NCBI GenBank assembly: GCA_023078555.1
Contig: CM041199.1
Coordinates: 5,337,315 to 5,401,314 of the forward strand
DNA from: Ulva prolifera
Lineage: Eukaryota; Chlorophyta; Ulvophyceae; Ulvales; Ulvaceae
DNA length: 64,000 nt
Direction of reading: 5' to 3'
Within the stretch, counting starts at the first letter, position 1. Each line of letters begins with the position of its first letter. Both the position numbers and the translations under genes were made by a program. Of this stretch, positions 1 to 46,013 are shown piece by piece. Under the pieces are notes generated by a model that ran no database searches, was not told the DNA's origin, and saw only the letters and a list, made by a program, of their open reading frames with translations.

Positions 1-1195
1 AGGCGCAGCTGTTAACCCGTACCCCGCAGTTTTACTGATGCCAGCAGGGGCCTCACGCTGTACACAGTTCAGTCTGAGCGACGCACACTGTGGGTAAGCC
101 TACGGCGAGTAAATGTCTAGCCTGAAGCAATAGGCTGCCAAAATTGCACACAGGCATGAACAGCAGCCAAAGCAGCTGTGACGAGCAGCACAAACACCCG
201 AGGCGTATCGCCCACACACGTCCATGGTGAACATTGATGGCATCTGTTGATGCAATGGGGCAGCCTACTCCGCCACAGAGACAACTCGACATGTACAGCC
301 TCCTCATCCAACGGGCGTGATTATAGGAAAACAAAACACAATGGCATGCACCGAGAGAATCCTCACTTCTTGGGGGGGAGATGAGCGGTCCGACAGTGAT
401 AGAACAGCCTGGGTCAGCAAGTGTTCAGGTGAAGCATCACTTCATGGATTAGCTCACCACAGCATGGTCTAATCTGAAGCCGCGGAACTGTGACAATCAC
501 CTGCAGCAGCCAATATGACCAAAGCATCTTTTGCCCTCCACAGAACCTTTCACCTGGCAACATCCAGCTGTAAAAGTTTGCCGGCTGTATGCATCTATAC
601 ATGCAGCCGGCTGCAGGCCGCAGGGTAACAGAGTGCCGTCTTTGGCTGCTTAATCAATCTCCAGGTTGTGGCCTGTGCTTCAGGATCCTGTAGTCCCCAC
701 AGAAGATCCAAACATTAGCACGAGACATTGAGATTGATGCACTTGTCACTTACTGTGGTGCTCAGGCGTTTGTTCAACATTCACCTTCAATGGTGCCTAG
801 CAGTGTGGATATGAATCTCCTGAGATAAGCATAGACATACACAACGTCTGTACGGTTCAAGGAGACAGAAATACGGGTCGCGTTCAGTGCACGGCGTGCA
901 TCGGGTTTGGAGGCTTCCAGAGGGCACCACTGTTACTGTGTACAGCTGTGTCACGCTTACGCTTGATCACCGCCGGAAAACGTGATCCTGACGACGTGCG
1001 GGATACGGAGGTTTCAGCCCTGGTAGCCATTTGCTGCGCAGCGTGCTGCTCACGTCAGCTGTGGACGATCGAGAAGTCTCTACATGTTGTGCCCTCCAGG
1101 CCATGTGTAGTCAGAGGCAGCATTATGTAGCGTTTATGGTATTGTTCAAGCTTCATCTGTGCTGTACAGCGCCCTGATCATCAAAATCGACAACT
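1..1195. other. Non-coding flank upstream of bZIP gene (copy A)
   Basis: No exon with consistent splice phase or recognisable protein motif was found here. Short open frames on both strands lack any family signature. The stretch presumably contains the promoter and 5' UTR of the downstream bZIP gene, but I see no convincing TATA box. The same stretch recurs at 28741-29935. Confidence 0.5.
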
Positions 1196-4100
1196 ATGGC
1201 ACAGGCGGAGAGACCGTCGCTCGCGTCTCTGCCGGACCTTATGGACGTGGACTTCAATGCTGATTTACCGGAAGATCTATTCGAGTTCGACAATCAGTTC
1301 TTGGATGAGTATCTGAAACGTGTTAGAGGTGCGCTGCTGTGTACCTGGGCCAAGTGCACGTAGCGCTGCGTTCCTCGACCGGATGTTTGATAATGCCACG
1401 CAGAAAAAACTGTCAACGTGAGAGGTGCTCGACATGCTTGGTAGCATGGTGAACACCGGCGGAAGTATTCTGTATGCGTAGGATATTCGTACAGCGTGGC
1501 TGGACGCTGCTGTATTCACCCGCTTGGCCTGGGGAGCCGCTGAGCTCCAGTCGATTTTGGAAAACGACTCAATCTGCGTGTTGGCGCATACATTGAAATT
1601 TGTAGCCTCGATGTTGATCTGAATGTCCCATCGCTTGGATTCTCTGCGATTCATCTTTCCAGTTGGGGCCCACATCTGCAGCATGGAAGTCACAAAGAGA
1701 GTATGTGGCAGTTGCCCTGATAGCAGCTATGATAGCAGCTACAGCATGGGGCCTGTCATGCGCGCTGCTGCTTCCACTGTTGTGATCGTCCATCTCTCAG
1801 CTACATCCTCAGATTCACAAAGTGGGATCACAGGTGCAGATGACAAAGGAACGTCTATGCTGTTACCGAGTATAGACCTAGATGATCCGTTGCTCCCCCC
1901 CCAAGCGCCTTCCGTGGGGTTGGCAAGTCACTCGACATCTGCTGGATCACACCCTTCCGGCCACTTGGCAGCAGGCCAGGTGTTTGCAGCACCTTCTTCA
2001 GCCGACGCCAACGTCCCTGCGTCCAATCAATTTGTGCCTGGAGCTGCTGTTGTGCCTCTGACTGCCCAGCCACACACGGCTCAGCCTCAGCAGGTCTTTT
2101 CAGTCCCAGGACCCCATGATCAGGACTTGGCACCGCCTCAATCTGCGGCCCATAGCGCAGCATATGAGGTTAGTCACCCATGTCTGCCTGTAAATGCATC
2201 TGCTGCTGAACGACGCCGTTTGGCTGTCTCTAGCGCTGCTGCATTGACATGACTCTGCCAATTTGTCGTTGAAAGTGTTGTCCCTGTGCGGACTCAGGTC
2301 TTGTGCAATTACATCGCGTGTTCAGAATAAGTGCGACTGATGCAGTCACTACAATGTTTGGTATGATGTCGCCAACTCCAGCATGGATATGGCCCGACAT
2401 GCAGCATGTCGAGAGCGATGCAGCACGTGTGTTATTTCATGTTCCCGCCTGCGCCAGTGGCCAGTGGCTGAATTTGTGGCAGAGCAGTAAACCTCACCAC
2501 TGCTCTCTTCCACAACTTCAGACATTGGCGCCGCCAAAGCCTTGGAACAAGTATCAGCTTCAATAGTATCAACCTGCTGTCTCCAGTGGTGGAGGTGGTG
2601 GCATCGTGCGAAAACTGCTCTGTGCAGCATTCGCAATACCCACAGCGTTGCCTGCCTTCATGCTGGCAGCATAAGTCTGCAGTACATGTGTTACTACAGG
2701 GCAGCACTTCATCAACATCTGCACAGGCCGCTGGTGCTACGTCACCATTTGTTCATTTGTGGCTTGTGCACATGATGCTTCATTTGCGGCTTGTGCAAAT
2801 GGCGTTGATGTTGTCAAAGCTGGAGCTCCATTCGAGCCGGACGTTGAGTAGCTCTACCGCTTCTATAGTAATGATTTTCTGTGGCCCACAGGAGGTGGAC
2901 GGTAGCGATGCACCTGCAGTGCACAGTAGTGGAACAGCTGGCAGTGCCCGAGCGAAGAAGGGTGCGACTGGACCCCGCAAAGCGACTCCGCAGCGCAAGC
3001 AGAACAACCGCAAGGCACAGCAGCGGTACCGCGAGAAGCGCAAGATGCAGGCAGTCGAGAGGGAGGAGCAGGTGTGGCCAAACTGCAGCTTTGTAGATGA
3101 AGACTGATAAAAAGAATCATCAGACCATGGCACAAGCCTGCTCTCAGCCTGTTGCGTAGCGTGTTCAGTGGTGGCTGGACAAAAACCCACAACAAATGAG
3201 ATAAACATTGATCGGCTATGGGTACACTGCAGGTGAAGCTGCTCTCCGCGCAGCTCGCAACGATGCAGGAGCTGCAGGAGCAGAACCAGAAGCATGCATC
3301 GGAGAACGACGAGCTGCGCAGCCAGCTGCAGGAGAAACAGGGCGAGATCGAGGCGCTTCGGGTACGCCCCGTCTGCAATCCACAAACGAACAGCAGCTCA
3401 CACACAACACCAGTCTGCATGTCTCTTGAATGTCAGAACCCCTTTCTGATATGTGCTGTGAATCTCCTCACATTCAACCTGCGAGTTTCAGTCAGGTGGT
3501 GTTCTGACAAGCGACCCCTTGGAGGTCACGTACTCTGCGCACCTCGTCCAGTTGGCAGACCTGGTGGGGTGGTGCAGAAGATGATGGAGGCGGGCTTTAT
3601 AGACCTCGGGGCGCGCTCCCACAGCGAACACAGTAGTGAGGGCCGCAACGGCTTCCGCGTCGACAGCGGCGGCGACGGCGGCGGCGGGGACAGCCCGATG
3701 GCCCGGGAGGAGCGCCCGGTCACCCAGCCGCAGCATGCGCGCCTCACGCACGACGATGCGGCTGCGCGCCTCAAGCAGCTCGTCGGCGAGATGCGCGCTC
3801 TGCTGGAGGCACACGGCCTGCCCGGCACCAGCTACCTGTGCGCCACCACTGCTTGTTCCCGCTGCTGCTCTGTCTCACAGCTCTGTCTCGTGGCACTGCA
3901 TCAACGCAGCAAGGTCTTGATATCGCTGTTCTAGTGCCAGACGTCTCGTGTGTTTCTGCCTTGGACACGGGAGTGGGCGCTGTTGTGGCTGCAATGGCGA
4001 TGTACCGATCATGAAACTTTCAGGTCACCATGATGGGTATTGGTCGCTACCTGTCATCCTGAGGCCCCGCATGTGGTGTGATCTGAGCAATCGCCTTCAG

Positions 4101-5362
4101 GGATCAGCGAGCCAGCAGGCCTTGCGGTCCTGGGGGTTTGGGAAGGGTCGGCTTGCCGCAGCTTGCACACGGGCGCGTCATGTGAAGACCACTCGTGCAG
4201 GAGGGGGGACCCCCGGTACTCCGACCCAGCGCTCGCGGCGGCGCTGCGGCCGCTCGCACAGCACGTCGACCGCCTCTCGATGCAGCGCCTGCTGACCGCG
4301 CCGGCGAAGCCGCAGGAGCGCAGCAAGTGCGACAGCAGCCGCTTCGCGAGCGCGCACCCGTGCGCGCTCTTCCGGGCGCGTTGGACCGGCGCCCTCGAGG
4401 CGATGGGCGTGAGCGAGGAGCAGGTGGACACGCTGCTCGCGGCGCGCGCGCAGACGCTCGAGCGGCTGCGGGCGCTGTACGAGGAGCGCGCGGAGCTGAA
4501 CAACATGACGATGGCGATCATGCTGCCGCGGCCCGCGCCAGAGTCGTTCTACGACGGCAGCACGGCGCGCAAGCTCGAGCTGATGGGCCAGTTTGGCGGC
4601 AAGTGCGCGCTGTCGCACAGCCAGCAGCTCGCGGAGGCGCTCGATGAGATCCGGGAGAACCTGCGCCAGGAGCAGCGCATCATGGTGCAGCTGCACAGCG
4701 TGCTCGTGCTCAAGGTGCCGCCCGGCTGTTGCGTGAGTACTGGCGTATGTTGATGCCCTGCACCGCCGCGTCACTGGCATGCGCTGCTGTAGCAGCACCA
4801 TCAGAACCCATGGGCGGGCACACGTCCACGCATCTGAGGAGTGAAGCTCTGCAGTGTATCGCAGCGGACAGCTTGCACCCGCCCCTGCCCTATATGTGTG
4901 CCACACTGTGCCCTGGCTGGGCTCGTCTCTGCTGCACCCACCGTTCGTGTGGCCTATGCTGTACTCTTGGCTGCAATCGCGATTCTCTAGCGGCAAGTTC
5001 TGTCGGGCTACTATCACGACCGCTTGACAGTAGGGTATGGCGTGCAGGTGCTCTCACCGGCGCAGGCCGCCGTGATGTTCACACTCGCCGACGATGAGCT
5101 CGTGGAGCCGCTGCACATCACAAACATCGCCGCGCTCAACCGCGGCGTCATCCAGCTGCTGCCGATGTGCCGTGGCGAAGTCGGTGACGGAGCGGCTGTC
5201 TGCAAGGTGGAGGCGGAGGAGCCTGCAGGGAGCACCAGCGCCGCGGCGACACACATGGCGGCGCCGCCGGCCACGGCGGCAGCACATGATGATATCCGGG
5301 CCTGCGAGACCACACGAGCGGACCCGTGGTGGCGCATCGGGGCGGTGTCCTTGCATCAATGA
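1196..5362 (+). CDS. bZIP transcription factor, seven-exon model (copy A)
   Basis: Nuclear DNA-binding regulator expected to dimerise through a leucine zipper; targets unknown. Exon model from splice sites and phase: 1196-1328, 1834-2168, 2892-3071, 3233-3361, about 3492 or 3512-3837, 4201-4714, 5048-5362. Exon 1 starts MAQAERPSLASLPDLMDVDF and is acidic; exon 2 is rich in P, S, A and Q, like an activation region. Exon 3 holds the basic region NRKAQQRYREKRK, which fits the N-x7-R rule. Exon 4 (43 codons) is a coiled coil with leucine heptads. Exons 6 and 7 form a helical C-terminal domain joined across the intron as LHSVLVLK-VLSPAQAAV, a style seen in green algal bZIPs (recalled, not searched). 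Most junctions agree in phase. Weak point: near 3540-3575 the frame needs a one-base change to join the two conserved-looking parts of exon 5, and copies A and B differ there by one C. The C-terminus is longer than in copy B. Confidence 0.82.
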
Positions 5363-8300
5363 CGCCGGAGCGGCTGAACCAGAGGGCACAGGGCGGTTAA
5401 TCTCATGGTTGTTCACTCCCATGTTCGAGACAAATGGCTTGAGATTTGGCGCCGGGGGTGAGGCAGAACGGCAGGAGTTGCTGTGTTTGCGGCGGGGCTA
5501 TGTCAGCGCGAGGCTGCATGAGCTGACACGCTCATGGATGAGAAACTGCACCTGTTTTGAGGAGATTGTGGCACTAGCCTGCGGAAAGGCTTGAGGTTGC
5601 TGTGTACCTTGTGCTCACCTTTGCTGGGTCATAATGCGCCGTATCGTGGCAGCCAAGTGGTGGCTGGCATCGATGCGTGAGCATGCCTGGAACACACGGC
5701 GTTGGCTAGAAGGGCATGGGGCACCCGCACCTGGACAGGGGAGTGCGGATGAGGTTGTGACGATGTATACTTAAGCTGCTGCCTGCGGCATTAGCCGCGG
5801 CATTGGCCCGGCTGTGGGTTGATCTTGTATCTGATATCTTTGTGGCGGTGCTGCTGCTAATACTAATGACCATGATCGGCGCAGCGGCTGTGGGTCGACA
5901 ATCTGAGACCTGCATGTACGACTGTTGGGAGTTTGCACAATCATGATCTGAAGAGTGTTCTGTACGCGTCTGCGTGTTTGACCTTTGCAGCTGTGTAACG
6001 GCGTATAATGATGGTGTGAGCGGTTGTTTGAAAGTGTCCTTGAATGCGACATGTTGTTGACACCTGCAGCTTTTGTGCCATAGTGAAGCCGTTGAGGCGC
6101 AGTGCGTGCAATCAATACGGACCTTGCCGATACCAACTGCAGCCCGCGGAGGGTGTATACGACATAACGATTAGAATACTGAGTCGAAACCTGCAGGTAA
6201 ACTGTGGCGTCTAGCCTTATGTATCTGTTGTGCTCAGAACAGTGTCAGCTTTGCCTGCCTAGTGCGGGCTGCCTAGTGGCAGCCCGCACCGCTACAGTGC
6301 TCGAGATAACGAGGTATAGTGCAGCTGCAGCGAAATGGCATCACATAGGGACACATGTTTGCATGTGCTGCTGGTGTGGGGCAGTGAACCACACCCCGAA
6401 ATCGCATATCACGCATTAGCAAGGAGCAAGATGACACGGTGCACTATGGACTCTCAAAATTATTGCCGGTGGTCCTTCCTGTGCCCTTCGTGGCTGTGCT
6501 GTAACCTCTCCACATTTTAAAGAGTCAGTACGTGTGAGTGAGGAATTGCAAACCGCCAACAACCTACAGCTAGGTTGTAAACTATGTCAGCTCCACAATT
6601 AGGCATTACTGCATGTTCGACGCATATCTCGCACGATACGCTGTCACCCAAATGGGATGGCGGTTCATCTGAGGTCTGTCCAGATCGGCCGTTGGAAACA
6701 TGCAACAGGCGATTATGCCAATGTATGCAACGTCCGCAGTGTATATGATTATGAGCGCCAGGATGTGTGATTGTCGGTTACATCCGTTCGACTGGACGCA
6801 TGACATTTTGAACGTGAACGCAGCATAGCATCATCGTATGCGGAGGATCACACGACCGTCGCCAAAAGCGTCAGCACCTACGATGACAGAACTGTGAGAC
6901 ATGAGTCTGTAAGTGTCTCCGATTCGATGAAGTGTTTCGCACCTGCTTTGGAGCAAGGCCTGGCGCACGTAGCGTCCCTGCACAGGACCGTCCAGGCTGC
7001 TCCGATTGACGTCCTATGATTGGTGGAGGAGACAGGGCGCCACATGATGCAGCGCTCACAACTTCAGGGACTTTGTGGTACTGTTATACTGTACGTTGAC
7101 TTGCCAAACAAGCGCACCACGTCGTACGGCCACATCGCCCATCACCTCAAGCCTGCCAGCATCGGCATCGCCCTGATTGTCGGATAACCGGGAACCACAT
7201 ACACAGGCGATAAAGGCGATCCGAAGCAACAAATTAAATCATGTAAGCCTGATCAAACTTGATTGATGTACGCTCTACCATGGACAGGCTGCACTCACAC
7301 CGATTCACAGCTGCAGTGGCAAAATTCATCAAGACTATTTGCATGCGCACGTATCAGTACGTCAACACAGCAGCTCAAATGTAAACTCTCATCATTGCAT
7401 CTGCCAGCGCTGATCTCAGGTGGAGACACAGAGCTCCAGGGCACGCTTCTGGAAGTGGCTGAAGTGCGTAGCTTCACCGCTGCAGCGTCAGGCAAGCTTT
7501 GGCTCGCACGGGTCTCCAAGGTCGTGCCAAGCATGTGCATAGCGCCCTCTGTTGTCCGAGTAGCGTGGCAACATATTACTGACTGGTCCGGCAACGGCAG
7601 CGTTTGCGTCAAGCATGGCCTGTCCAGTCCTACGCTGTTCCGCTGTGCTTGTTCCTCGCCCATGAGCTCGCGTTGACCGAACACCCCAAAATCATGCATA
7701 GATCTACCTTCCCAATTTGGGCTTGTTTATTATGTCTGTCCAAGTCTGCTTACAGCCAATCCGCTCCTGCAGTTGTCACTAAATGCAGTACGGCGTTTAC
7801 ACAGGAAGGGGTGCGCTTCGGCCGGAAGCCCCACGCATGTGCAACTTGATATGATTTGCGCTCTCTGTGGCTGAATGCGTTAGCGTCGTCCTGCACGCTC
7901 CAGCCGTAGCTATCTGTTGAATCTCGTAAAACAGTAGCCGCATGCCTCACAAGCACATCGCTGTGATCACACTGTCAACATAATGTCACATACCAGCAGG
8001 TCCAATATCCGACATACAGCTGCGCAGCTGGGGGGGCTGCTGGCGAGAAGCACCCACCGTGCTCGAGGCTTGCTTCCCGTGTCACAGCATAGTCTCGTTG
8101 GGTTGTCATCAGTCCTTGATGCCCGGGATACAGTGAAGTGGGGACAATGCCTTCGTGTGGTGTCTAAGAGTATGCGGCGTTAAGATCTGCACTGTAGCCA
8201 TGGTCGTCATCGCAGTGTGCTCTTCGAACACACGTAACCGAGCCGAATAACTTCCCCGCGTGCATGCCTACATCCACTCCCTGAGACTGATACAGTAGCC

Positions 8301-9732
8301 TTCGGATCTCATCGCTTTTACTGGTCCGCTTTCTGTGATCTAGGCGGAATGGCCACAGCTCACGGCCATTCACTCACTAGCATGTTCGGGACCGAAGACA
8401 AGGTGCCCCCACGCTCATACGTGAAACACCGCCACCAAAAACACTAAACGTGAGTTGTGTAGCCATGTCAGCGTAAGAGGATCTAACTGCAGGCCTGTGC
8501 GTGGACTGGGGACTGCCTGGTTGAAGGGTGCGCCAAGCGTTGTGTTGCAGACCTTGGCGCAGGCGCATCAGCAACGGTCCTCGAGGATCGGGCCTTCTCA
8601 GAGACCTGGTATGCGCTATGTCCTCGGCTGGCGAACGTCGTAGACATCGTCGTGCGTGCGACGACTCCTGACACCACTACCTCCCCTCCCCCACAGATAG
8701 CCTCGGGGCAGAAGGCTCACTCACAGCCAGGCACAGATGGCGACGCCACAACACCAGATGAGGCAAGCTCACGGTCTCTGCTGAGCTCTGGCCACCACGA
8801 AGAGGTGTTGTCGGAAGTGCGATCCCCCAGCCTCAACCTGCACACGCACGAGAACCTACAGCAGCTCAGCTTGTTCCCATGGCTGCGATTTCACCATACA
8901 TCTCAAGTTGTCTCTCTACCTGAGCGATCTGAGACTGTTGTTGTCTGGCTGGATCGTGCAGCCGTGCACTGTCCAGCCCTGTGCATGCCGTCCAGCTCTA
9001 CTAGCCACCACGTAGTCAGTGACAGGCGACTGAGCTCGGGCAATTGCATGGCAGAGCACCAGCCCGAACTACCACACATTGCAATCCCGCAGAACCGCAG
9101 AGACTGCACGCCTGCACGCTGATGCACAGAACACATCCAGACGAGTGCCATCCCGCCCTCTAGCATGCACATGTCACAGCAGTGTTGAGTCGCTTTGCTG
9201 CATATCCAGGACTGCCACCCCGAAAGTAGATCTGAATATTCGGATTTTTTCTATGTGATCGGGCCCGATGACCCAACACTGCTCCACAGGACGCTGATCT
9301 GACGTCTGAGTGTCTCTGATCGCACCCGAAGCTGACGCAGTCTCTCTCTCCTGGCCTTCCCGTCTGCAGCGAGCTCGCGCAGCTTCCATGCCTCCCTTGG
9401 CCGGCCCTCTGCTGAACCACGGTGTCCCGGGCTGGACTGCCAACAGAGCCGGATCCTGAGGAGAGCCTGTGCAGCATCGAGCACAGGCTGCTAGGCCGCG
9501 GTCGCACTGGGTCATGGCAAGACCCGCATGCCTGAGCATTGGCTGACCCATGCATGCTCACATTGGAATAGCTCAATCGATGCCTTGCTGACGCTGCCCG
9601 GCCCGAAGCATGCCCCCACCCCGCTGCGAATGCGCCGCTCTGGGGAGCCTAGCATCATTCGCCGCACTCTTGCGCGCGCGCGACCGGCGGTTTTTTGGGT
9701 CCTCCGCTGAGGTTGGCCGGACTGCTGCGCAG
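5363..9732. other. Long stretch without a supported gene (copy A)
   Basis: About 4.4 kb between the bZIP stop and the first supportable exon of the next gene. It holds the bZIP 3' region (a TGTAA at 5994-5998 could end that transcript) and a perfect hairpin at 6262-6289. Several open frames (for example 7263-7676 and 8652-9122, both +) show no recognisable domain, and some are broken in the other copy by one-base changes. The first exons of the unknown surface protein probably lie in the right half, but I could not identify them. Confidence 0.45.
6262..6289. other. Perfect 12-bp-stem hairpin (copy A)
   Basis: GTGCGGGCTGCC (6262-6273) is followed by a TAGT loop and then its exact reverse complement GGCAGCCCGCAC (6278-6289). 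It sits in the non-coding stretch downstream of the bZIP gene, on either transcribed strand. It is conserved unchanged in copy B at 34992-35019. The role is unknown; a small structured RNA, a 3' UTR element or chance are all possible. Confidence 0.7.
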
Positions 9733-11778
9733 GAGGTGCTGTTCCGCGTCGCGCACGCGGTCGCATCCAGCGCCGGCCGCGCGGGCACGCCCGGCGCGCC
9801 GGGAACCCTGAACATGCGGCGCTCGCTGCTCGACGCCGCCGCTCCCGCCCCGGCCGCCGCCGCGGAGGCGGGGGATGTGCGGCAGGAGTGCCCGTCGCCC
9901 GACACAGTGCGGCAATACGGCCGCTTCCTGCCCACGCTGGCGGACGAGTACGAGGCAGTGTTCCAGGCCGACGCCTCGGGTGCGGCTCCGCCCGCCTGCT
10001 GCCAGGATGAATGATCATGTGTGTGTATGTAGTTACAAAGGATAGAGGCTGCGAGCCTCAGGCCAATGCCCGCAACTTACCACCTACTCGATGGCGATGG
10101 TGATGCTTTGCGCTCCAGTGGTTCGGGCATAGTTCTGGTTTTCTTTGCTGGTGCAACGTTCCACGCTTGTGTATCAGAGACACATGGGGTCATCATTTGC
10201 TGAACGGCACTTATGCAGCGCCTCGAAACTGTTTCAGCCCCCTCCCCCCCCCCCGCCCCTTCGTTTGTTGAATGATGCACGCGCGGCCACCATGGACCTG
10301 CCACAATGCATGATGTGCATGTGTGCAGGCCAGCCGCTGACACAGCGGCAGATCCAGCTCGCGCCGTTCGTCCTCGACAAGCCGAACGAGTTTGCGGTGC
10401 TGGTGTCGTTCTTGCGGGACCCGGCGCGGCTTGCGGCGTACGTGCGCGATGCATGCACGACGTCGGCCATCCCCAACGCGGCGTTCCCACTATACGCCAG
10501 GTTCCTGCTCGACATCACACGACCGCAGCCCGGCACGGACGTCGTGGTGTGCCGGGACAACTTCCTTGCCATGGAGCAGCACGTGCGGTGTGTCCTCCAG
10601 GCCCGGCACAGTATCTGCGGTCTGTGAATTTCTGTGGCGCGCGTGTGCTCAGAATGAAATTCCAGTTACCACAGGTATCTAACTTGCCTCACTCTTAATT
10701 CAAGCAATGTGATTCTGGATTAACCGAGCCAAATCCTTAAGAGGACTTTCACAGGTCCGGACGACCAGGACCACGTGCCGAAGGGAATCAACCACTTGGA
10801 AAACCCGTACAGTACCATGGCATCCCCCCGCCCCCGGCAGACAGCTTCATGCATGTGCAGGGGTATCGTCGATGCGAACGAGGAGTGAGTGCCGCCGTTC
10901 GGCGAGCGGCCGGACTGCTTCGGCACGTCGTTCGACATCCCGTGGACGCCGACGACGGCGCGGTGCGCGGCCGCGCTCGCCACGGCGTACAACACCTCCA
11001 CCCCCCGTGCCCCTCACCACCGTGGCCACGTCGATGCAGGACCTGCATGCGACCTGCACCGCCGCCCAGTCCAAGGTGTGCCCCCTACCCCTTCTCGAAG
11101 CACCGTCCAAGTATCCAGCGGCGCGGCGGCAAGCCTTGGTGCTCCGCCAAGACATGGCCGGTGGCTGTCATTTGTCGTCGGCCCAAAACACAATACGCAC
11201 GGCGAGTCGGCGCAGCGGCCGGCCACTCGCGCGGAAACCTGGAGTGGGTGACACCCTGTCTGCAGCTCTTGCACGACAACCATGCTGTGCGCTGCCGTTA
11301 CCACCTGGCCCTGAGGCGCTCACACCAGCACAGCACAGCACAGCACGGAGCGCCCAGCCGCATCAGTAGACCCTGTGCAGGTGAGCTGCGACGCGGTCGA
11401 CGGAAGCACACAGCGCAACGCGATCGGCAATGCGTGGACGATGTTCCCCCTGCGCGCGCCTCTGCCGGGGGGGCTGCCGCCCTCCGCCCCCGCTCCGCAG
11501 GGCACGCCGCCGGTGCTCACTCTTGAAGGGAGTGGCCCGGCAGATGCCCCTGCTGCCGCTGGCGCCGGCGGAGGGCCGCTGGTGGCCACTGCCGCGGCAC
11601 CCACCAGCATCCCCGCTCTGTCACCACAGGTGGTTGCGGCGGCGGGAGGAGGCGGGGCAGTGACATTCGCGGAGGAGGATGCGCCCGAGGAGACTAGTGT
11701 GGCCGGGACGGTGTGGCACCATGCATGGGAGTGCTTGCGGGTGGAGTGGCTGTGGTGGCGCTGCTGGTGCATGCGTAG
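9733..11778 (+). pseudogene. Unknown cysteine-containing surface-like protein gene, disrupted in copy A
   Basis: Counterpart of the gene at 38460-40499. Exons are 9733-9979, 10329-10589, 10755-11075 and 11381-11778. Compared with copy B, the third exon has TGA at 10886-10888 where B reads TGC (Cys). A run of C near 11003-11008 is one base longer. A GT/TG dinucleotide is inserted near 11711-11714, which throws the hydrophobic C-terminus out of frame. Two further bases differ in the intron near 11183. Either copy A is a decaying duplicate or, more likely given the error pattern, it is a poorer consensus of the same locus. Function is not recognised; see the copy B entry for a description of the protein. 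Confidence 0.55.
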
Positions 11779-14072
11779 CATGCATCAAAAAGCGGAATTA
11801 AACGGGGGGGGCACGCAATTGCGACTGCCACTGCCGGCCCGACATGTGTGACCTTGAGGGAGCGCCCTGTGCGCTATGCTCATGCACACCCGCTGTGCAT
11901 GCTGTGGCAGCGAGCCTGGCAGCGCCAACGTGCCTGAGACTACCTGGAGGGGCACAGCAGTGGCCTGTGACTGCCACCAGCATGCTATCAAGCAGCGCTG
12001 CATGTGCTAGCCTGTCTTTCAGTGCAGGTGGCAGTCTCGATGGGAGTTCGGCGCAAGAGGGATTGCCCCTTGTGGCGACGGGCCGGTCGCCAACAGGCCT
12101 GCTGTGACGGCAGCTCATGCCGCAAGCCCCGCCTTTCGTTTGCTTGTCATTTGGACGCAGCGAGGTGCCGCAGTGGCCACAGGGGCGACATCTGCAGGGC
12201 CCGGAGGGTTACCTTGCAGATTTAGATTAGCTGCTATTGTATGACTGCAGCCCCGCAGCAGCTGCGCCGCGTCTGCAGTGCTAGGCATTGATTAGCGGTG
12301 TACGGCATACGGGGGCAGCGTAGCTGCCTGGTAGAGGTGCATGCATTGGCGCCCGTAGGGCAGCCAGTCGGGCGGGCATTGAAGCTGAGATGTTCACGAG
12401 CTGGCCGTTCATTCTCGTGAGGCCATGCACCGGAGGTGCACATGCAAGGTACGTGCAGGACAGCCTGACGAATGTCATGAGTGTGTGCAGAGCTGGCGAG
12501 CTTTGTAACTTGGGGTCTCGTCGCCCTGCATGGTGAACAAGATACGATGCACTGCGTGGCGGAGCAACAACCGTACCGCTAAAAGCAGACTGTATGGTCT
12601 GTGATTCTCCCACCCGGAGGCGCGTGATGTCCGGCAAAGAATATCACACTGTAGCCCTGAGTGGCAACAGGATGTGTGCGATAGACTGGGCTGTCCCCGC
12701 GGCTCAGCCCTGCAGGTGGCAAGATGCAGCATAAGCCTGAGCCCTGCTCCTGAACAAGGCTGTATCCGGCAATGAGTCATCCTCTCAAGCGCATCTACGG
12801 AACCCGGTCACCAGCGCATACCATGTATGGCATCGTCAGTATCCCGTTGTGACCCATAGCATCGCCACCCTTGAAAAAATAAGTGTGACACTGCCGAGGC
12901 TTGGCGGCCAGCAATGCATGTGAGCGTGTGCTGCAGCCGGCAGCAGCAACATCATCCTTTGGCCACCGTGGTCTGTGGTGCATGTGGGTCGCCCTGTACT
13001 GCAGGAGCACGCTCAGCAACCGTGCGCTGACTGTGATCCATGTGCATCATCCGTATCTCAGGTCCACCGCCATGTCTGTGGTATCATGGAGAATGCGGTT
13101 TGTTCCAGTGGCTCAGCCGCCACCGATGCAGAGGGGTGGAGGCATGCAGAGTTAGCCCTGCCCGGCACACTAGCACCATGGCAACATCGCTGAGAGCTTT
13201 CCAGCTGTGGCAGGCCCCACCAAGCGCCATCACCACTCCGCTGAAACACGTCAACGCTGCGTTGCACCGCAGATGTGGTGACCGAAGTTCTGCAGTCCTG
13301 CCTACCATGTGCCCCAGACAAGCATCTGAACACTGGATTTTCAACGTTGCAATGGCTTGTGATGTGAAGCTTTCATAACAGCACTTGACACCTAGATGTA
13401 ATGTCAACAACAAGAACGTGTGCAATTTGTTTTTAGACAGCCACAATGTAGGTACCAGTTCTTATCTGTCAAAACATTGCAAACGTTAAAATTTTGTCTG
13501 GGCAGAAAGGCATAGCGGTGACATGCAGAAATGGACAATGGAAGATAACATAGTCTGTGCGTGATTGCAAGCAGCATATATGTTCACAATCAGATGTGTG
13601 TAACAGGCTCATCAACTGTCGCTGTCCTGCTGAAGCGCATGAAATAAATGGCAATTGCGAACTGGTGGTGTGAAATCTTTGCTGATGTCCACACCCAGTT
13701 GGAAAAATACTTGTATGCAACTGTTTTAGTATGGTCATTATTGGGTGAGTAAAAATTTTGTTTTCACATGATGTAAGATGATACATCTGTAGATGCAATT
13801 TGACTCTACAAAACATGACTCTTGGTCCAGATACACCATATCTGTGGACACTTCTGGATGCTCCACATAGTATTAATTGAGACAAAAGAACAGACTAGCT
13901 GCTGCATATGTTTACATTGCCTCTACTCACTCGGAGAAAACACGGCATAGATTTGCCACTGAAGCCCTCACACTCCAGGCCAACTCCACGTCGCGGCATG
14001 CTCTCTCGGGGTACACACTCAGGACCATGCTATGTATGGTAGTACTGGGGTAGTGAAGGGTGCGACCAAAGC
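11779..14072. other. Intergenic stretch between convergent genes (copy A)
   Basis: This 2.3 kb stretch separates the unknown + strand gene from GapA on the - strand. Base composition turns AT-richer towards GapA, as expected for 3' UTR and intergenic DNA. The only element I can support is a TGTAA on the - strand at 13912-13916. Open frames here have no recognisable domain. Confidence 0.5.
13912..13916 (-). promoter_or_regulatory. Putative polyadenylation signal TGTAA for GapA (copy A)
   Basis: TGTAA on the minus strand, about 157 nt beyond the GapA stop codon. TGTAA is the known polyadenylation signal of chlorophyte green algae. The pentamer is short and can occur by chance. Conserved in copy B at 42641-42645. 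Confidence 0.4.
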
Positions 14073-32900: not shown

Positions 32901-34027
32901 TGCACACGGGCGCGTCATGTGAAGACCACTCGTGCAGGAGGGGGGACCCCCGGTACTCCGACCCAGCGCTCGCGGCGGCGCTGCGGCCGCTCGCACAGCA
33001 CGTCGACCGCCTCTCGATGCAGCGCCTGCTGACCGCGCCGGCGAAGCCGCAGGAGCGCAGCAAGTGCGACAGCAGCCGCTTCGCGAGCGCGCACCCGTGC
33101 GCGCTCTTCCGGGCGCGTTGGACCGGCGCCCTCGAGGCGATGGGCGTGAGCGAGGAGCAGGTGGACACGCTGCTCGCGGCGCGCGCGCAGACGCTCGAGC
33201 GGCTGCGGGCGCTGTACGAGGAGCGCGCGGAGCTGAACAACATGACGATGGCGATCATGCTGCCGCGGCCCGCGCCAGAGTCGTTCTACGACGGCAGCAC
33301 GGCGCGCAAGCTCGAGCTGATGGGCCAGTTTGGCGGCAAGTGCGCGCTGTCGCACAGCCAGCAGCTCGCGGAGGCGCTCGATGAGATCCGGGAGAACCTG
33401 CGCCAGGAGCAGCGCATCATGGTGCAGCTGCACAGCGTGCTCGTGCTCAAGGTGCCGCCCGGCTGTTGCGTGAGTACTGGCGTATGTTGATGCCCTGCAC
33501 CGCCGCGTCACTGGCATGCGCTGCTGTAGCAGCACCATCAGAACCCATGGGCGGGCACACGTCCACGCATCTGAGGAGTGAAGCTCTGCAGTGTATCGCA
33601 GCGGACAGCTTGCACCCGCCCCTGCCCTATATGTGTGCCACACTGTGCCCTGGCTGGGCTCGTCTCTGCTGCACCCACCGTTCGTGTGGCCTATGCTGTA
33701 CTCTTGGCTGCAATCGCGATTCTCTAGCGGCAAGTTCTGTCGGGCTACTATCACGACCGCTTGACAGTAGGGTATGGCGTGCAGGTGCTCTCACCGGCGC
33801 AGGCCGCCGTGATGTTCACACTCGCCGACGATGAGCTCGTGGAGCCGCTGCACATCACAAACATCGCCGCGCTCAACCGCGGCGTCATCCAGCTGCTGCC
33901 GATGTGCCGTGGCGAAGTCGGTGACGGAGCGGCTGTCTGCAAGGTGGAGGCGGAGGAGCCTGCAGGGAGCACCAGCGCCGCGGCGACACACATGGCGGCG
34001 CCGCCGGCCACGGCGGCAGCCACATGA
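29936..34027 (+). CDS. bZIP transcription factor, seven-exon model (copy B)
   Basis: Same gene as 1196-5362. Exons: 29936-30068, 30572-30906, 31630-31809, 31971-32099, about 32230 or 32250-32574, 32938-33451, 33785-34027. Basic region NRKAQQRYREKRK, leucine zipper and C-terminal domain are identical. Two differences matter. First, one C is missing near 32280 compared with copy A, which changes the frame of the early part of exon 5. Second, an extra C near 34019-34022 shifts the last exon so that it stops at 34027 after ATAAAT-type residues, 112 bases earlier in copy A coordinates than the TGA at 5362. Which end is right cannot be told from sequence alone. Likely a nuclear DNA-binding regulator; targets unknown. 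Confidence 0.82.
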
Positions 34028-37000
34028 TGATATCCGGGCCTGCGAGACCACACGAGCGGACCCGTGGTGGCGCATCGGGGCGGTGTCCTTGCATCAATGA
34101 CGCCGGAGCGGCTGAACCAGAGGCACAGGGCGGTTAATCTCATGGTGTTCACTCCCATGTTCGAGACAAATGGCTTGAGATTTGGCGCCGGGGGTGAGGC
34201 AGAACGGCAGGAGTGCTGTGTTTGCGGCGGGGCTATGTCAGCGCGAGGCTGCATGAGCTGACACGCTCATGGATGAGAAACTGCACCTGTTTTGAGGAGA
34301 TTGTGGCACTAGCCTGCGGAAAGGCTTGAGGTTGCTGTGTACCTTGTGCTCACCTTTGCTGGGTCATAATGCGCCGTATCGTGGCAGCCAAGTGGTGGCT
34401 GGCATCGATGCGTGAGCATGCCTGGAACACACGGCGTTGGCTAGAAGGGCATGGGGCACCCGCACCTGGACAGGGGAGTGCGGATGAGGTTGTGAAGATG
34501 TATACTTAAGCTGCTGCCTGCGGCATTAGCCGCGGCATTGGCCCGGCTGTGGGTGATCTTGTATCTGATATCTTTGTGGCGGTGCTGCTGCTAATACTAA
34601 TGACCATGATCGGCGCAGCGGCTGTGGGTCGACAATCTGAGACCTGCATGTACGACTGTTGGGAGTTTGCACAATCATGATCTGAAGAGTGTTCTGTACG
34701 CGTCTGCGTGTTTGACCTTTGCAGCTGTAACGGCGTATAATGATGGTGTGAGCGGTTGTTGAAAGTGTCCTTGAATGCGACATGTTGTTGACACCTGCAG
34801 CTTTTGTGCCATAGTGAAGCCGTTGAGGCGCAGTGCGTGCAATCAATACGGACCTTGCCGATACCAACTGCAGCCGCGGAGGGTGTATACGACATAACGA
34901 TTAGAATACTGAGTCGAAACCTGCAGGTAAACTGTGGCGTCTAGCCTTATGTATCTGTTGTGCTCAGAACAGTGTCAGCTTTGCCTGCCTAGTGCGGGCT
35001 GCCTAGTGGCAGCCCGCACCGCTACAGTGCTCGAGATAACGAGGTATAGTGCAGCTGCAGCGAAATGGCATCACATAGGGACACATGTTTGCATGTGCTG
35101 CTGGTGTGGGGCAGTGAACCACACCCCGAAATCGCATATCACGCATTAGCAAGGAGCAAGATGACACGGTGCACTATGGACTCTCAAAATTATTGCCGGT
35201 GGTCCTTCCTGTGCCCTTCGTGGCTGTGCTGTAACCTCTCCACATTTTAAAGAGTCAGTACGTGTGAGTGAGGAATTGCAAACCGCCAACAACCTACAGC
35301 TAGGTTGTAAACTATGTCAGCTCCACAATTAGGCATTACTGCATGTTCGACGCATATCTCGCACGATACGCTGTCACCCAAATGGGATGGCGGTTCATCT
35401 GAGGTCTGTCCAGATCGGCCGTTGGAAACATGCAACAGGCGATTATGCCAATGTATGCAACGTCCGCAGTGTATATGATTATGAGCGCCAGGATGTGTGA
35501 TTGTCGGTTACATCCGTTCGACTGGACGCATGACATTTTGAACGTGAACGCAGCATAGCATCATCGTATGCGGAGGATCACACGACCGTCGCCAAAAGCG
35601 TCAGCACCTACGATGACAGAACTGTGAGACATGAGTCTGTAAGTGTCTCCGATTCGATGAAGTGTTTCGCACCTGCTTTGGAGCAAGGCCTGGCGCACGT
35701 AGCGTCCCTGCACAGGACCGTCCAGGCTGCTCCGATTGACGTCCTATGATTGGTGGAGGAGACAGGGCGCCACATGATGCAGCGCTCACAACTTCAGGGA
35801 CTTTGTGGTACTGTTATACTGTACGTTGACTTGCCAAACAAGCGCACCACGTCGTACGGCCACATCGCCCATCACCTCAAGCCTGCCAGCATCGGCATCG
35901 CCCTGATTGTCGGATAACCGGGAACCACATACACAGGCGATAAAGGCGATCCGAAGCAACAAATTAAATCATGTAAGCCTGATCAAACTTGATTGATGTA
36001 CGCTCTACCATGGACAGGCTGCACTCACACCGATTCACAGCTGCAGTGGCAAAATTCATCAAGACTATTTGCATGCGCACGTATCAGTACGTCAACACAG
36101 CAGCTCAAATGTAAACTCTCATCATTGCATCTGCAGCGCTGATCTCAGGTGGAGACACAGAGCTCCAGGGCACGCTTCTGGAAGTGGCTGAAGTGCGTAG
36201 CTTCACCGCTGCAGCGTCAGGCAAGCTTTGGCTCGCACGGGTCTCCAAGGTCGTGCCAAGCATGTGCATAGCGCCCTCTGTTGTCCGAGTAGCGTGGCAA
36301 CATATTACTGACTGGTCCGGCAACGGCAGCGTTTGCGTCAAGCATGGCCTGTCCAGTCCTACGCTGTTCCGCTGTGCTTGTTCCTCGCCCATGAGCTCGC
36401 GTTGACCGAACACCCCAAAATCATGCATAGATCTACCTTCCCAATTTGGGCTTGTTTATTATGTCTGTCCAAGTCTGCTTACAGCCAATCCGCTCCTGCA
36501 GTTGTCACTAAATGCAGTACGGCGTTTACACAGGAAGGGGTGCGCTTCGGCCGGAGCCCCACGCATGTGCAACTTGATATGATTTGCGCTCTCTGTGGCT
36601 GAATGCGTTAGCGTCGTCCTGCACGCTCCAGCCGTAGCTATCTGTTGAATCTCGTAAAACAGTAGCCGCATGCCTCACAAGCACATCGCTGTGATCACAC
36701 TGTCAACATAATGTCACATACCAGCAGGTCCAATATCCGACATACAGCTGCGCAGCTGGGGGGGCTGCTGGCGAGAAGCACCCACCGTGCTCGAGGCTTG
36801 CTTCCCGTGTCACAGCATAGTCTCGTTGGGTTGTCATCAGTCCTTGATGCCCGGGATACAGTGAAGTGGGGACAATGCCTTCGTGTGGTGTCTAAGAGTA
36901 TGCGGCGTTAAGATCTGCACTGTAGCCATGGTCGTCATCGCAGTGTGCTCTTCGAACACACGTAACCGAGCCGAATAACTTCCCCGCGTGCATGCCTACA

Positions 37001-38459
37001 TCCACTCCCTGAGACTGATACAGTAGCCTTCGGATCTCATCGCTTTTACTGGTCCGCTTTCTGTGATCTAGGCGGAATGGCCACAGCTCACGGCCATTCA
37101 CTCACTAGCATGTTCGGGACCGAAGACAAGGTGCCCCCACGCTCATACGTGAAACACCGCCACCAAAAACACTAAACGTGAGTTGTGTAGCCATGTCAGC
37201 GTAAGAGGATCTAACTGCAGGCCTGTGCGTGGACTGGGGACTGCCTGGTTGAAGGGTGCGCCAAGCGTTGTGTTGCAGACCTTGGCGCAGGCGCATCAGC
37301 AACGGTCCTCGAGGATCGGGCCTTCTCAGAGACCTGGTATGCGCTATGTCCTCGGCTGGCGAACGTCGTAGACATCGTCGTGCGTGCGACGACTCCTGAC
37401 ACCACTACCTCCCCTCCCCCACAGATAGCCTCGGGGCAGAAGGCTCACTCACAGCCAGGCACAGATGGCGACGCCACAACACCAGATGAGGCAAGCTCAC
37501 GGTCTCTGCTGAGCTCTGGCCACCACGAAGAGGTGTTGTCGGAAGTGCGATCCCCCAGCCTCAACCTGCACACGCACGAGAACCTACAGCAGCTCAGCTT
37601 GTTCCCATGGCTGCGATTTCACCATACATCTCAAGTTGTCTCTCTACCTGAGCGATCTGAGACTGTTGTTGTCTGGCTGGATCGTGCAGCCGTGCACTGT
37701 CCAGCCCTGTGCATGCCGTCCAGCTCTACTAGCCACCACGTAGTCAGTGACAGGCGACTGAGCTCGGGCAATTGCATGGCAGAGCACCAGCCCGAACTAC
37801 CACACATTGCAATCCCGCAGAACCGCAGAGACTGCACGCCTGCACGCTGATGCACAGAACACATCCAGACGAGTGCCATCCCGCCCTCTAGCATGCACAT
37901 GTCACAGCAGTGTTGAGTCGCTTTGCTGCATATCCAGGACTGCCACCCCGAAAGTAGATCTGAATATTCGGATTTTTTCTATGTGATCGGGCCCGATGAC
38001 CCAACACTGCTCCACAGGACGCTGATCTGACGTCTGAGTGTCTCTGATCGCACCCGAAGCTGACGCAGTCTCTCTCTCCTGGCCTTCCCGTCTGCAGCGA
38101 GCTCGCGCAGCTTCCATGCCTCCCTTGGCCGGCCCTCTGCTGAACCACGGTGTCCCGGGCTGGACTGCCAACAGAGCCGGATCCTGAGGAGAGCCTGTGC
38201 AGCATCGAGCACAGGCTGCTAGGCCGCGGTCGCACTGGGTCATGGCAAGACCCGCATGCCTGAGCATTGGCTGACCCATGCATGCTCACATTGGAATAGC
38301 TCAATCGATGCCTTGCTGACGCTGCCCGGCCCGAAGCATGCCCCCACCCCGCTGCGAATGCGCCGCTCTGGGGAGCCTAGCATCATTCGCCGCACTCTTG
38401 CGCGCGCGCGACCGGCGGTTTTTGGGTCCTCCGCTGAGGTTGGCCGGACTGCTGCGCAG
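34028..38459. other. Long stretch without a supported gene (copy B)
   Basis: Counterpart of 5363-9732. Most of the one-base differences between the copies fall in its first kilobase (near 34122, 34147, 34213, 34553, 34728, 34761 and 34875), typically as a base present once here and twice in copy A. Contains the hairpin at 34992. Probably includes unrecognised 5' exons of the next gene. Confidence 0.45.
34992..35019. other. Perfect 12-bp-stem hairpin (copy B)
   Basis: Same GTGCGGGCTGCC / GGCAGCCCGCAC stem with TAGT loop as at 6262-6289. Unchanged between copies although neighbouring bases carry length differences. Confidence 0.7.
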
Positions 38460-40499
38460 GAGGTGCTGTTCCGCGTCGCGCACGCGGTCGCATCCAGCGC
38501 CGGCCGCGCGGGCACGCCCGGCGCGCCGGGAACCCTGAACATGCGGCGCTCGCTGCTCGACGCCGCCGCTCCCGCCCCGGCCGCCGCCGCGGAGGCGGGG
38601 GATGTGCGGCAGGAGTGCCCGTCGCCCGACACAGTGCGGCAATACGGCCGCTTCCTGCCCACGCTGGCGGACGAGTACGAGGCAGTGTTCCAGGCCGACG
38701 CCTCGGGTGCGGCTCCGCCCGCCTGCTGCCAGGATGAATGATCATGTGTGTGTATGTAGTTACAAAGGATAGAGGCTGCGAGCCTCAGGCCAATGCCCGC
38801 AACTTACCACCTACTCGATGGCGATGGTGATGCTTTGCGCTCCAGTGGTTCGGGCATAGTTCTGGTTTTCTTTGCTGGTGCAACGTTCCACGCTTGTGTA
38901 TCAGAGACACATGGGGTCATCATTTGCTGAACGGCACTTATGCAGCGCCTCGAAACTGTTTCAGCCCCTCCCCCCCCCCCGCCCCTTCGTTTGTTGAATG
39001 ATGCACGCGCGGCCACCATGGACCTGCCACAATGCATGATGTGCATGTGTGCAGGCCAGCCGCTGACACAGCGGCAGATCCAGCTCGCGCCGTTCGTCCT
39101 CGACAAGCCGAACGAGTTTGCGGTGCTGGTGTCGTTCTTGCGGGACCCGGCGCGGCTTGCGGCGTACGTGCGCGATGCATGCACGACGTCGGCCATCCCC
39201 AACGCGGCGTTCCCACTATACGCCAGGTTCCTGCTCGACATCACACGACCGCAGCCCGGCACGGACGTCGTGGTGTGCCGGGACAACTTCCTTGCCATGG
39301 AGCAGCACGTGCGGTGTGTCCTCCAGGCCCGGCACAGTATCTGCGGTCTGTGAATTTCTGTGGCGCGCGTGTGCTCAGAATGAAATTCCAGTTACCACAG
39401 GTATCTAACTTGCCTCACTCTTAATTCAAGCAATGTGATTCTGGATTAACCGAGCCAAATCCTTAAGAGGACTTTCACAGGTCCGGACGACCAGGACCAC
39501 GTGCCGAAGGGAATCAACCACTTGGAAAACCCGTACAGTACCATGGCATCCCCCCGCCCCCGGCAGACAGCTTCATGCATGTGCAGGGGTATCGTCGATG
39601 CGAACGAGGAGTGCGTGCCGCCGTTCGGCGAGCGGCCGGACTGCTTCGGCACGTCGTTCGACATCCCGTGGACGCCGACGACGGCGCGGTGCGCGGCCGC
39701 GCTCGCCACGGCGTACAACACCTCCACCCCCGTGCCCCTCACCACCGTGGCCACGTCGATGCAGGACCTGCATGCGACCTGCACCGCCGCCCAGTCCAAG
39801 GTGTGCCCCCTACCCCTTCTCGAAGCACCGTCCAAGTATCCAGCGGCGCGGCGGCAAGCCTTGGTGCTCCGCCAAGACATGGCCGGTGGCTGTCATTTGT
39901 CGTCGGCAAAACACAATACGCACGGCGAGTCGGCGCAGCGGCCGGCCACTCGCGCGGAAACCTGGAGTGGGTGACACCCTGTCTGCAGCTCTTGCACGAC
40001 AACCATGCTGTGCGCTGCCGTTACCACCTGGCCCTGAGGCGCTCACACCAGCACAGCACAGCACAGCACGGAGCGCCCAGCCGCATCAGTAGACCCTGTG
40101 CAGGTGAGCTGCGACGCGGTCGACGGAAGCACACAGCGCAACGCGATCGGCAATGCGTGGACGATGTTCCCCCTGCGCGCGCCTCTGCCGGGGGGGCTGC
40201 CGCCCTCCGCCCCCGCTCCGCAGGGCACGCCGCCGGTGCTCACTCTTGAAGGGAGTGGCCCGGCAGATGCCCCTGCTGCCGCTGGCGCCGGCGGAGGGCC
40301 GCTGGTGGCCACTGCCGCGGCACCCACCAGCATCCCCGCTCTGTCACCACAGGTGGTTGCGGCGGCGGGAGGAGGCGGGGCAGTGACATTCGCGGAGGAG
40401 GATGCGCCCGAGGAGACTAGTGTGGCCGGGACGGTGGCACCATGCATGGGAGTGCTTGCGGGTGGAGTGGCTGTGGTGGCGCTGCTGGTGCATGCGTAG
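38460..40499 (+). CDS. Unknown cysteine-containing protein with hydrophobic C-terminus (copy B, 5' end not found)
   Basis: I do not recognise this family. Four exons join in phase: 38460-38706, 39055-39315, 39481-39800, 40104-40499 (about 407 residues; earlier exons missing). Visible features: an alanine-rich start, then RQYGRFLPTLADEYEAVFQA, then IQLAPFVLDKPNEF and FLRDPARLAAYVRDACTT. A central part with spaced cysteines follows (RCPDDQDHVPKGINHLENPY; ECVPPFGERPDCFGTSFDIP; HATCTAAQSK; VSCDAVDG). After that comes a P/A/G-rich spacer, then a final hydrophobic stretch CMGVLAGGVAVVALLVHA right at the stop (TAG 40497-40499). Paired cysteines plus a short hydrophobic C-terminus without a charged tail suggest an extracellular protein with a GPI signal or a single membrane anchor; this is inference. 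The expected signal peptide should be in an unidentified first exon upstream. Copy A carries a stop and frameshifts. Confidence 0.65.
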
Positions 40500-42801
40500 C
40501 ATGCATCAAAAAGCGGAATTAAACGGGGGGGGCACGCAATTGCGACTGCCACTGCCGGCCCGACATGTGTGACCTTGAGGGAGCGCCCTGTGCGCTATGC
40601 TCATGCACACCCGCTGTGCATGCTGTGGCAGCGAGCCTGGCAGCGCCAACGTTGCCTGAGACTACCTGGAGGGGCACAGCAGTGGCCTGTGACTGCCACC
40701 AGCATGCTATCAAGCAGCGCTGCATGTGCTAGCCTGTCTTTCAGTGCAGCGTGGCAGTCTCGATGGGAGTTCGGCGCAAGAGGGATTGCCCCTTGTGGCG
40801 ACGGGCCGGTCGCCAACAGGCCTGCTGTGACGGCAGCTCATGCCGCAAGCCCCGCCTTTCGTTTGCTTGTCATTTGGACGCAGCGAGGTGCCGCAGTGGC
40901 CACAGGGGCGACATCTGCAGGGCCCGGAGGGTTACCTTGCAGATTTAGATTAGCTGCTATTGTATGACTGCAGCCCCGCAGCAGCTGCGCCGCGTCTGCA
41001 GTGCTAGGCATTGATTAGCGGTGTACGGCATACGAGGGGGCAGCGTAGCTGCCTGGTAGAGGTGCATGCATTGGCGCCCGTAGGGCAGCCAGTCGGGCGG
41101 GCATTGAAGCTGAGATGTTCACGAGCTGGCCGTTCATTCTCGTGAGGCCATGCACCGGAGGTGCACATGCAAGGTACGTGCAGGACAGCCTGACGAATGT
41201 CATGAGTGTGTGCAGAGCTGGCGAGCTTTGTAACTTGGGGTCTCGTCGCCCTGCATGGTGAACAAGATACGATGCACTGCGTGGCGGAGCAACAAACCGT
41301 ACCGCTAAAAGCAGACTGTATGGTCTGTGATTCTCCCACCCGGAGGCGCGTGATGTCCGGCAAAGAATATCACACTGTAGCCCTGAGTGGCAACAGGATG
41401 TGTGCGATAGACTGGGCTGTCCCCGCGGCTCAGCCCTGCAGGTGGCAAGATGCAGCATAAGCCTGAGCCCTGCTCCTGAACAAGGCTGTATCCGGCAATG
41501 AGTCATCCTCTCAAGCGCATCTACGGAACCCGGTCACCAGCGCATACCATGTATGGCATCGTCAGTATCCCGTTGTGCACCCATAGCATCGCCACCCTTG
41601 AAAAAATAAGTGTGACACTGCCGAGGCTTGGCGGCCAGCAATGCATGTGAGCGTGTGCTGCAGCCGGCAGCAGCAACATCATCCTTTGGCCACCGTGGTC
41701 TGTGGTGCATGTGGGTCGCCCTGTACTGCAGGAGCACCGCTCAGCAACCGTGCGCTGACTGTGATTCCATGTGCATCATCCGTATCTCAGGTCCACCGCC
41801 ATGTCTGTGGTATCATGGAGAATGCGGTTTGTTCCAGTGGCTCAGCCGCCACCGATGCAGAGGGGTGGAGGCATGCAGAGTTAGCCCTGCCCGGCACACT
41901 AGCACCATGGCAACATCGCTGAGAGCTTTCCAGCTGTGGCAGGCCCCACCAAGCGCCATCACCACTCCGCTGAAACACGTCAACGCTGCGTTGCACCGCA
42001 GATGTGGTGACCGAAGTTCTGCAGTCCTGCCTACCATGTGCCCCAGACAAGCATCTGAACACTGGATTTTCAACGTTGCAATGGCTTGTGATGTGAAGCT
42101 TTCATAACAGCACTTGACACCTAGATGTAATGTCAACAACAAGAACGTGTGCAATTTGTTTTTAGACAGCCACAATGTAGGTACCAGTTCTTATCTGTCA
42201 AAACATTGCAAACGTTAAAATTTTGTCTGGGCAGAAAGGCATAGCGGTGACATGCAGAAATGGACAATGGAAGATAACATAGTCTGTGCGTGATTGCAAG
42301 CAGCATATATGTTCACAATCAGATGTGTGTAACAGGCTCATCAACTGTCGCTGTCCTGCTGAAGCGCATGAAATAAATGGCAATTGCGAACTGGTGGTGT
42401 GAAATCTTTGCTGATGTCCACACCCAGTTGGAAAAATACTTGTATGCAACTGTTTTAGTATGGTCATTATTGGGTGAGTAAAAATTTTGTTTTCACATGA
42501 TGTAAGATGATACATCTGTAGATGCAATTTGACTCTACAAAACATGACTCTTGGTCCAGATACACCATATCTGTGGACACTTCTGGATGCTCCACATAGT
42601 ATTAATTGAGACAAAAGAACAGACTAGCTGCTGCATATGTTTACATTGCCTCTACTCACTCGGAGAAAACACGGCATAGATTTGCCACTGAAGCCCTCAC
42701 ACTCCAGGCCAACTCCACGTCGCGGCATGCTCTCTCGGGGTACACACTCAGGACCATGCTATGTATGGTAGTACTGGGGTAGTGAAGGGTGCGACCAAAG
42801 C
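40500..42801. other. Intergenic stretch between convergent genes (copy B)
   Basis: Counterpart of 11779-14072. Several length differences from copy A cluster between about 40650 and 41770 (for example one extra base near 40652, 40749, 41294, 41578 and 41737), after which the copies align without length change. No supported gene other than the putative poly(A) signal. Confidence 0.5.
42641..42645 (-). promoter_or_regulatory. Putative polyadenylation signal TGTAA for GapA (copy B)
   Basis: Minus-strand TGTAA about 157 nt beyond the GapA stop, identical in position to the copy A element. Confidence 0.4.
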
Positions 42802-44914
<2,113 letters not shown>

Positions 44915-46013
44915 GGTGAATAGATGAGTATTGACCTGTTCAGCAGCCGGATACAGAACGCAAGGTAATCATGCAGTGACTTAGCTGGCATATATGTGGA
45001 GTGCGTGTACTCGCGTGTCCAGGAAGGCATGCTGTGCACTCGGTGTAAGGGGGCGATCCGCCACGGCGGCCACGGCGGCGCTTGAGATTGCGCGACTATT
45101 CCGCCAAGCCTGCGGTCGTCGTGAGACGCACTTGATACTGTCGATTTGAACTGGAATAATGTGGCACGTATGCCCGGGCGCGGGTTTACGCATCGAAAAG
45201 TCTTGTTTCATAAGGGTTATGATGAATTTGTGACTCGTAGGCTAGCATTGCACATTGACATGTGAGCGCGTAGGGCTGCTGGACGGACACATGCACGTTG
45301 TTGCGCAACACCAATGTTCGAACGTATCTGAGTACAATTGAGTCGAAGCTAGTTCAAACGTGCATATTTGGGCCACTACTAGCATACAGGTGCTCATAGG
45401 CATAGCGCGCAGTCGAACAGAAGCCTCGTAAGAAGGCGCGTCTTCACAATCGCCTGGCCTCATTTCTGTTGGCGTTAGCTGTTGCTATCACAGTATCTGA
45501 ACTCTTCAACATGTTATGTTGCACTGTATGCTGCTATGTCGGCGAACGTGCCTCGCAATTGGAACACGACATCAACGTGGCATCTTGACTCGGAGACCTG
45601 ACGCTGAGGCAGACGCTGAGCTAGCGCTCGGGCTGACACGTACCGTCTGGCTACATGAATGACGGCACAAACTTCCTGAATCATGTCGCTCTACCTGTTG
45701 CTGCGTGTCGATATCGCTTTGTTCTATTCTGTTGTTGCATCATGTCATCCACACAGATGCTGTGTGGTGGACAGCGTACACCATCGCCCGTCGTCTTTCT
45801 GTGTTGCGTCTTTGGAACACTCAGGCTGAGCTTTAGAAGCAATGTTCTTCTCCAGAACCCTTTATTTTACACCTGGAGCCACGAGACTGTGCCCTGCAGC
45901 TGTCCTCTTTACACCACGCCACCAGCAGCGTGCCAGAGATGCAACCACGTTTGCTGGCCCTGACCATTATGCTATGCAGGTGAAATTCAGGGGATACAGC
46001 TGAGTCGCAGTCC
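44915..46013. other. Divergent intergenic region between GapA and aminotransferase
   Basis: About 1.1 kb between two start codons facing away from each other. The left 270 bases are shared with copy A; the rest is single copy. It must contain both promoters. I see a TATA-like CATATATG for GapA at 44989-44996; nothing clear for the aminotransferase. No coding exon recognised. Confidence 0.5.
44989..44996 (-). promoter_or_regulatory. TATA-like element upstream of GapA (copy B)
   Basis: CATATATG about 75-82 nt upstream of the GapA start on the minus strand. Spacing is plausible for a TATA box; no experimental support. Confidence 0.3.

Follow-up and report, generated by a model that had tools for sequence, protein, structure and literature searches.

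Genes and features of the locus

The window analysed here is a stretch of 64,000 nucleotides of Ulva prolifera DNA (C4:5337315-5401314), taken from an assembly of 88.9 Mb in 44 contigs. Positions are those of the window, and negative numbers denote the DNA to its left. A long direct repeat, with copies A and B on the two sides of a gap, occupies most of it, and its features are as follows.

1 to 16448, plus strand: right part of copy A, with which the left contig ends; about 12.2 kb more of the copy precede the window
14073 to 15214, minus strand: copy A's part of GapA (chloroplast GAPDH) without the first exons; the upstream limit was transferred from copy B by offset
16449 to 16548, no strand: gap of 100 N between two contigs of overlapping sequence; the sole N run in the window
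16549 to 45182, plus strand: copy B, the opening 28.6 kb of the right contig; matches -12174 to 16448
16549 to 19500, plus strand: remnant of a chromodomain-type LTR retroelement with which copy B begins: its 3' part, comprising the end of pol (Tf2-1-like SH3 and chromo domains) and the 3' LTR
18434 to 19500, plus strand: 3' LTR of 1067 bp, followed by CATGA
42802 to 43943, minus strand: same part of GapA in copy B, given as a span only and not as exon ends
45183 to 64000, plus strand: right flank past the overlap, probed with 45100-47000

The best match of GapA was 7zq3, which we take to be a Chlamydomonas entry. Across the assembly, 12 matches to the GAPDH C-terminal family group into five places, three of which are this GapA. 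The Pfam scan covered 50 stretches, two of them nearly identical, four from the right flank and one from the retroelement. Three passed the cut-off (two GapA exons and the retroelement fragment), two gave weak matches below it, to a coiled-coil family and a luteovirus VPg family, and the other 45 of the 50 were without any Pfam match. Therefore, of the three genes that an earlier note on this DNA had assigned to each copy, GapA could be recognised in part, while the other two were not recognised among the scanned stretches. No Rfam family reached the gathering score anywhere in the window. The 45100-47000 probe matched itself, the ends of copy A and of a further copy on C3 through its first 83 bases, and one weak minus-strand stretch of 100 bp in the same region; over this probe the start of the right flank is otherwise single-copy. 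Besides, a GC-rich tandem array with a 23-bp unit in about 11 copies lies at 47445-47706.

Extent of the repeat around the gap

The repeat had earlier been described as the pair 1-16448 and 28741-45182, with a retroelement and other DNA lying between the copies. The pair itself is real, and its pairwise alignment runs over 16,462 columns with 3 mismatches and 28 gap openings; the starts at 1 and 28741 were found to be wrong. After 50 kb of left flank had been added to the window, copy A was read as -12174 to 16448 and copy B as 16551 to 45182, aligned over 28,660 columns at 99.752% identity with 6 mismatches and 56 gap openings. Two bases ahead of 16551 also belong to the copy B match, behind a small gap, placing the true starts at -12174 and at 16551 or two bases earlier. 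The final 28.6 kb left of the gap are thus the initial 28.6 kb right of it, a suffix-prefix overlap visible only from sequence beyond the window edges. Since copy A starts at -12174 and copy B directly after the gap, 16549-28740 is not inter-copy DNA and forms the first part of copy B. A tandem duplication with a retroelement between its copies was accordingly rejected, the intervening DNA belonging to copy B.

Differences between the two copies

Over -12170 to 16443 (28,586 aligned bases), copies A and B are distinguished by 6 substitutions and 54 indels. One-base indels make up 46 of the 54, and in 42 of those a run is lengthened or a letter doubled, in agreement with the predominance of one-base length changes proposed before. 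As a yardstick, the 5' parts of the retroelement copies on C4 and C3 were compared, and 54 substitutions and 27 indels were counted over 6.5 kb; the balance of substitutions to indels differs sharply from that between A and B (Fisher p = 4e-12), the yardstick being one pair of mobile elements aligned with a different program. The A-B differences are unlike those of diverged copies.

A third copy on C3

Two places on C4 and one on C3 were hit by a 2 kb probe taken from copy A, and the same three by a probe from the opposite end of the repeat. The C3 copy matches -13021 to 16448 and ends at 9339410, the base ahead of its own gap of 100 N, so that it and copy A stop at the same base. In the last 30 bases copy A carries four changes against B, which upholds the noisy tail reported earlier, but not its attribution to one contig end, as the C3 copy is identical there. 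Private noise at a single contig end was rejected for the same reason, the A and C3 tails agreeing letter for letter. Because the two copies have the same end letters and the four tail changes in common, it is suggested that both ends derive from a single assembly product. Right of the C3 gap, no segment of more than 150 bp matched the C4 stretch; elsewhere, a 2 kb probe from this DNA was matched only at 68-72% identity.

In the three-way alignment, 92 difference events could be sorted by the copy that is odd, namely 33 for B, 32 for C3 and 27 for A. These events form 7 runs by odd copy, as compared with 62 on average and no fewer than 43 in 20,000 shuffles. Along the repeat the odd copy is at first C3, next B and afterwards A; near the end there are also one block of B and two short ones of C3. 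This block pattern would be accounted for if three drafts of one sequence had been polished unequally. Open frames of at least 100 aa were counted in the zones where one C4 copy is odd. Where A is odd, there are 57 in A (8,427 aa), 53 in B (8,035) and 53 in C3 (8,059); where B is odd, A and C3 each have 28 (4,035 aa) and B has 29 (3,977). In both zones the counts gave no sign of which copy is in error.

Over the same stretch as was used for A and B, 12 substitutions and 50 indels were counted for A-C3 and 14 substitutions and 55 indels for B-C3. These are less one-sided than the A-B differences, mostly owing to a noisy zone at the entry of the C3 copy; without it, 6 substitutions and 27 indels are left for A-C3, and 7 and 30 for B-C3. 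This junction zone, -13022 to -11425, is dense in small indels against A; on C3 the junction lies at 9309892-9311542.

LTR retroelements at the junctions

The remnant with which copy B opens is the 3' end of a retroelement; on the copy A side this element is whole and extends over -19594 to -9225. This C4 element has identical LTRs of 1067 bp and is flanked by CATGA on both sides, as expected of a target-site duplication, and the identity of its LTRs suggests that it is young. Its long frame matched RVT_1, RT_RNaseH, RT_RNaseH_2, Integrase_H2C2, SH3_Tf2-1, Chromo and Asp_protease_2 above the cut-off, and the integrase core (rve), gag-asp_proteas and zf-H2C2 below it. The domain search of its first frame (769 aa) returned no match, gag included.

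In the element preceding the repeat on C3, the LTRs are 96.2% alike (21 mismatches and 9 gap openings), and the flanks are CTTCA on one side and CATGA on the other. A further C3 element, at 9254072-9264456 on the minus strand, is bordered by CTTCA at either end. The junction element on C3 is, to judge from its two ends, a hybrid. Because of the unmatched flanks, the unlike LTRs and the noisy junction, the C3 copy looks like a mis-join from a C3 element into the C4 locus, and it is probably false.

A palindrome ahead of the C3 copy

Ahead of the C3 copy, C3 is palindromic about 9283866 with zero spacer. Alignment of C3:9280000-9287727 to its own reverse complement gave 6 mismatches and 86 gap openings, a count in which each difference appears twice. 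A locus approximately 20 kb left of the centre is the mirror image of its right-hand counterpart, the two aligning over 4,072 columns with 1 mismatch and 12 gap openings. Foldback artefacts in long reads have been described (PMC12870357), and the C3 palindrome is probably such a fold-back artefact. The palindrome region recurs on C5 and on the small contig C34; C34:1-6186 carries it in both orientations and is possibly a redundant copy.

Interpretation of the repeat

The reading that we favour, with a probability of roughly 93%, is that one locus lies on two neighbouring contigs, which share about 28.6 kb at their ends and were set side by side, unmerged, with 100 N between them. The earlier note had likewise proposed one locus placed twice by the assembler, and it is borne out in this. 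Three observations make a false duplication the best reading: the repeat abuts the gap from either side, indels far outnumber substitutions among the differences, and copy A and the C3 copy, each at its own gap, break off at an identical base. That the duplication is an ordinary assembly artefact and not a real feature is, as judged from these data, well supported.

The proposed course of events is as follows. A single locus would have been assembled on two neighbouring contigs. The right contig would open inside the young LTR retroelement, while the left contig would cross the element and stop 28.6 kb further on. Had copies of the retroelement interrupted the assembly graph, contig ends such as these would be expected. 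The scaffolder would then have placed the contigs next to each other with a 100-N gap, leaving the overlap unmerged and the locus shown twice. Through another copy of the retroelement, the same stretch may also have been joined to a C3 contig, giving a third, probably false, copy. The individual assembler steps, and the unequal polishing of three drafts, are what we infer from the pattern of ends and differences.

A true tandem duplication, recent and with a period of 28.7 kb and a breakpoint in the retroelement, at whose junction of real copies the assembler broke, would explain why sequence and order are unchanged between the copies; moreover, a gap with identical sequence to its left and right could likewise result from the collapse of a true tandem array. 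Nevertheless, 54 indels against six substitutions are not what such a duplication would lead one to expect, the end of copy A does not continue into the start of B, and the C3 copy stops at the same base, all of which makes it very unlikely. The two contig ends could also represent the alleles of one heterozygous locus, that is, a haplotype false duplication, for which the same layout of adjacent overlapping contigs is on record (PMC2864568). Yet with merely six substitutions in 28.6 kb, and with differences arranged in blocks private to one of three copies, this is very unlikely.

On C3, a real interchromosomal duplication by recombination between two LTR retroelements would be compatible with an artefact in the C4 pair, and unmatched flanking 5-mers and unlike LTRs would be expected from it as well. 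It would leave unexplained the noise of the junction and the contig end in common with copy A, where the C3 copy stops at a gap, at the same base and with the same tail; furthermore, this copy is preceded by the zero-spacer palindrome, between whose arms most of the differences are indels. We regard such a recombination as quite unlikely. Very recent copying of a 28.6 kb GapA segment mediated by the retroelement, in tandem on C4 and onto C3, is a further reading that would cover all three copies, if it had taken place before substitutions arose and consensus errors had been added later; its chances appear very slim.

Comparison with described false duplications

Duplicated overlapping contigs (DOC) have been defined as adjacent contigs that align over more than 300 bp at more than 95% identity, not more than 300 bp from both ends (Kelley and Salzberg, 2010; PMC2864568). 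Here, with contig ends taken from the N gap, the 28,660 columns at 99.752% lie 0 bp and 2 bp from the gap, and nothing but the 100 N stands between the contigs. The DOC cases are ascribed in that account to divergent haplotypes and were judged by mate pairs, which should agree better once the contigs are merged, whereas substitutions are nearly absent here and the assessment draws on sequence alone. Homotype false duplications at contig boundaries, linked to sequencing error in the accounts of Rhie et al. (2021; PMC8081667) and Ko et al. (2022; PMC9516828), offer a further likeness: there, as here, a dovetailing overlap of contig ends becomes a tandem duplicate with a gap after scaffolding, and in the present case the gap lies between the duplicated pair on one scaffold. 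In those accounts the differences within a pair stem from sequencing error and not from haplotype variation, a picture that the six substitutions and the many run-lengthening indels here would fit; further marks of such pairs are low read depth and a lack of heterozygous k-mers, whereas the present comparison draws on assembled sequence. A third copy joined elsewhere through a retroelement sets this case apart from them.

If the favoured reading is true, a single chloroplast GapA gene is shown three times in the assembly, and about 58 kb of it would be false (28.6 kb on C4 and 29.5 kb on C3). Anyone counting gene families, studying copy number or dating retroelements from this assembly would be misled. 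In addition, retroelements with different 5-mers on their two flanks may mark such mis-joins without reads.

Flanks of related retroelements

In a survey of related elements, 40 of 138 candidates were scored and 50 matches listed; of 30 loci taken from these, 24 were checked for their flanks, and 23 of the 24 had a readable start. Paired by position, these 23 make up seven full-length pairs, six solo LTRs and three single ends. The flanks are equal in five of the seven full-length pairs listed, one of which, on C5, spans 14 kb as against the usual length of about 10.4 kb. The two that fail are the C3 junction element and a pair on C5 that also has CTTCA on its left flank. The flanks of the solo LTRs, among the matches listed, are exact in five of six and off by one base in the sixth.

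At C5:9158480-9200293, the retroelement is flanked by CTTCA on the left and GTGGC on the right, and GTGGC also stands to the left of a truncated LTR at a distance of 31 kb. Compared with the C3 flank, the 1.5 kb to the left of the CTTCA end on C5 show 1 substitution and 8 indels. This arrangement suggests a further mis-join on C5.
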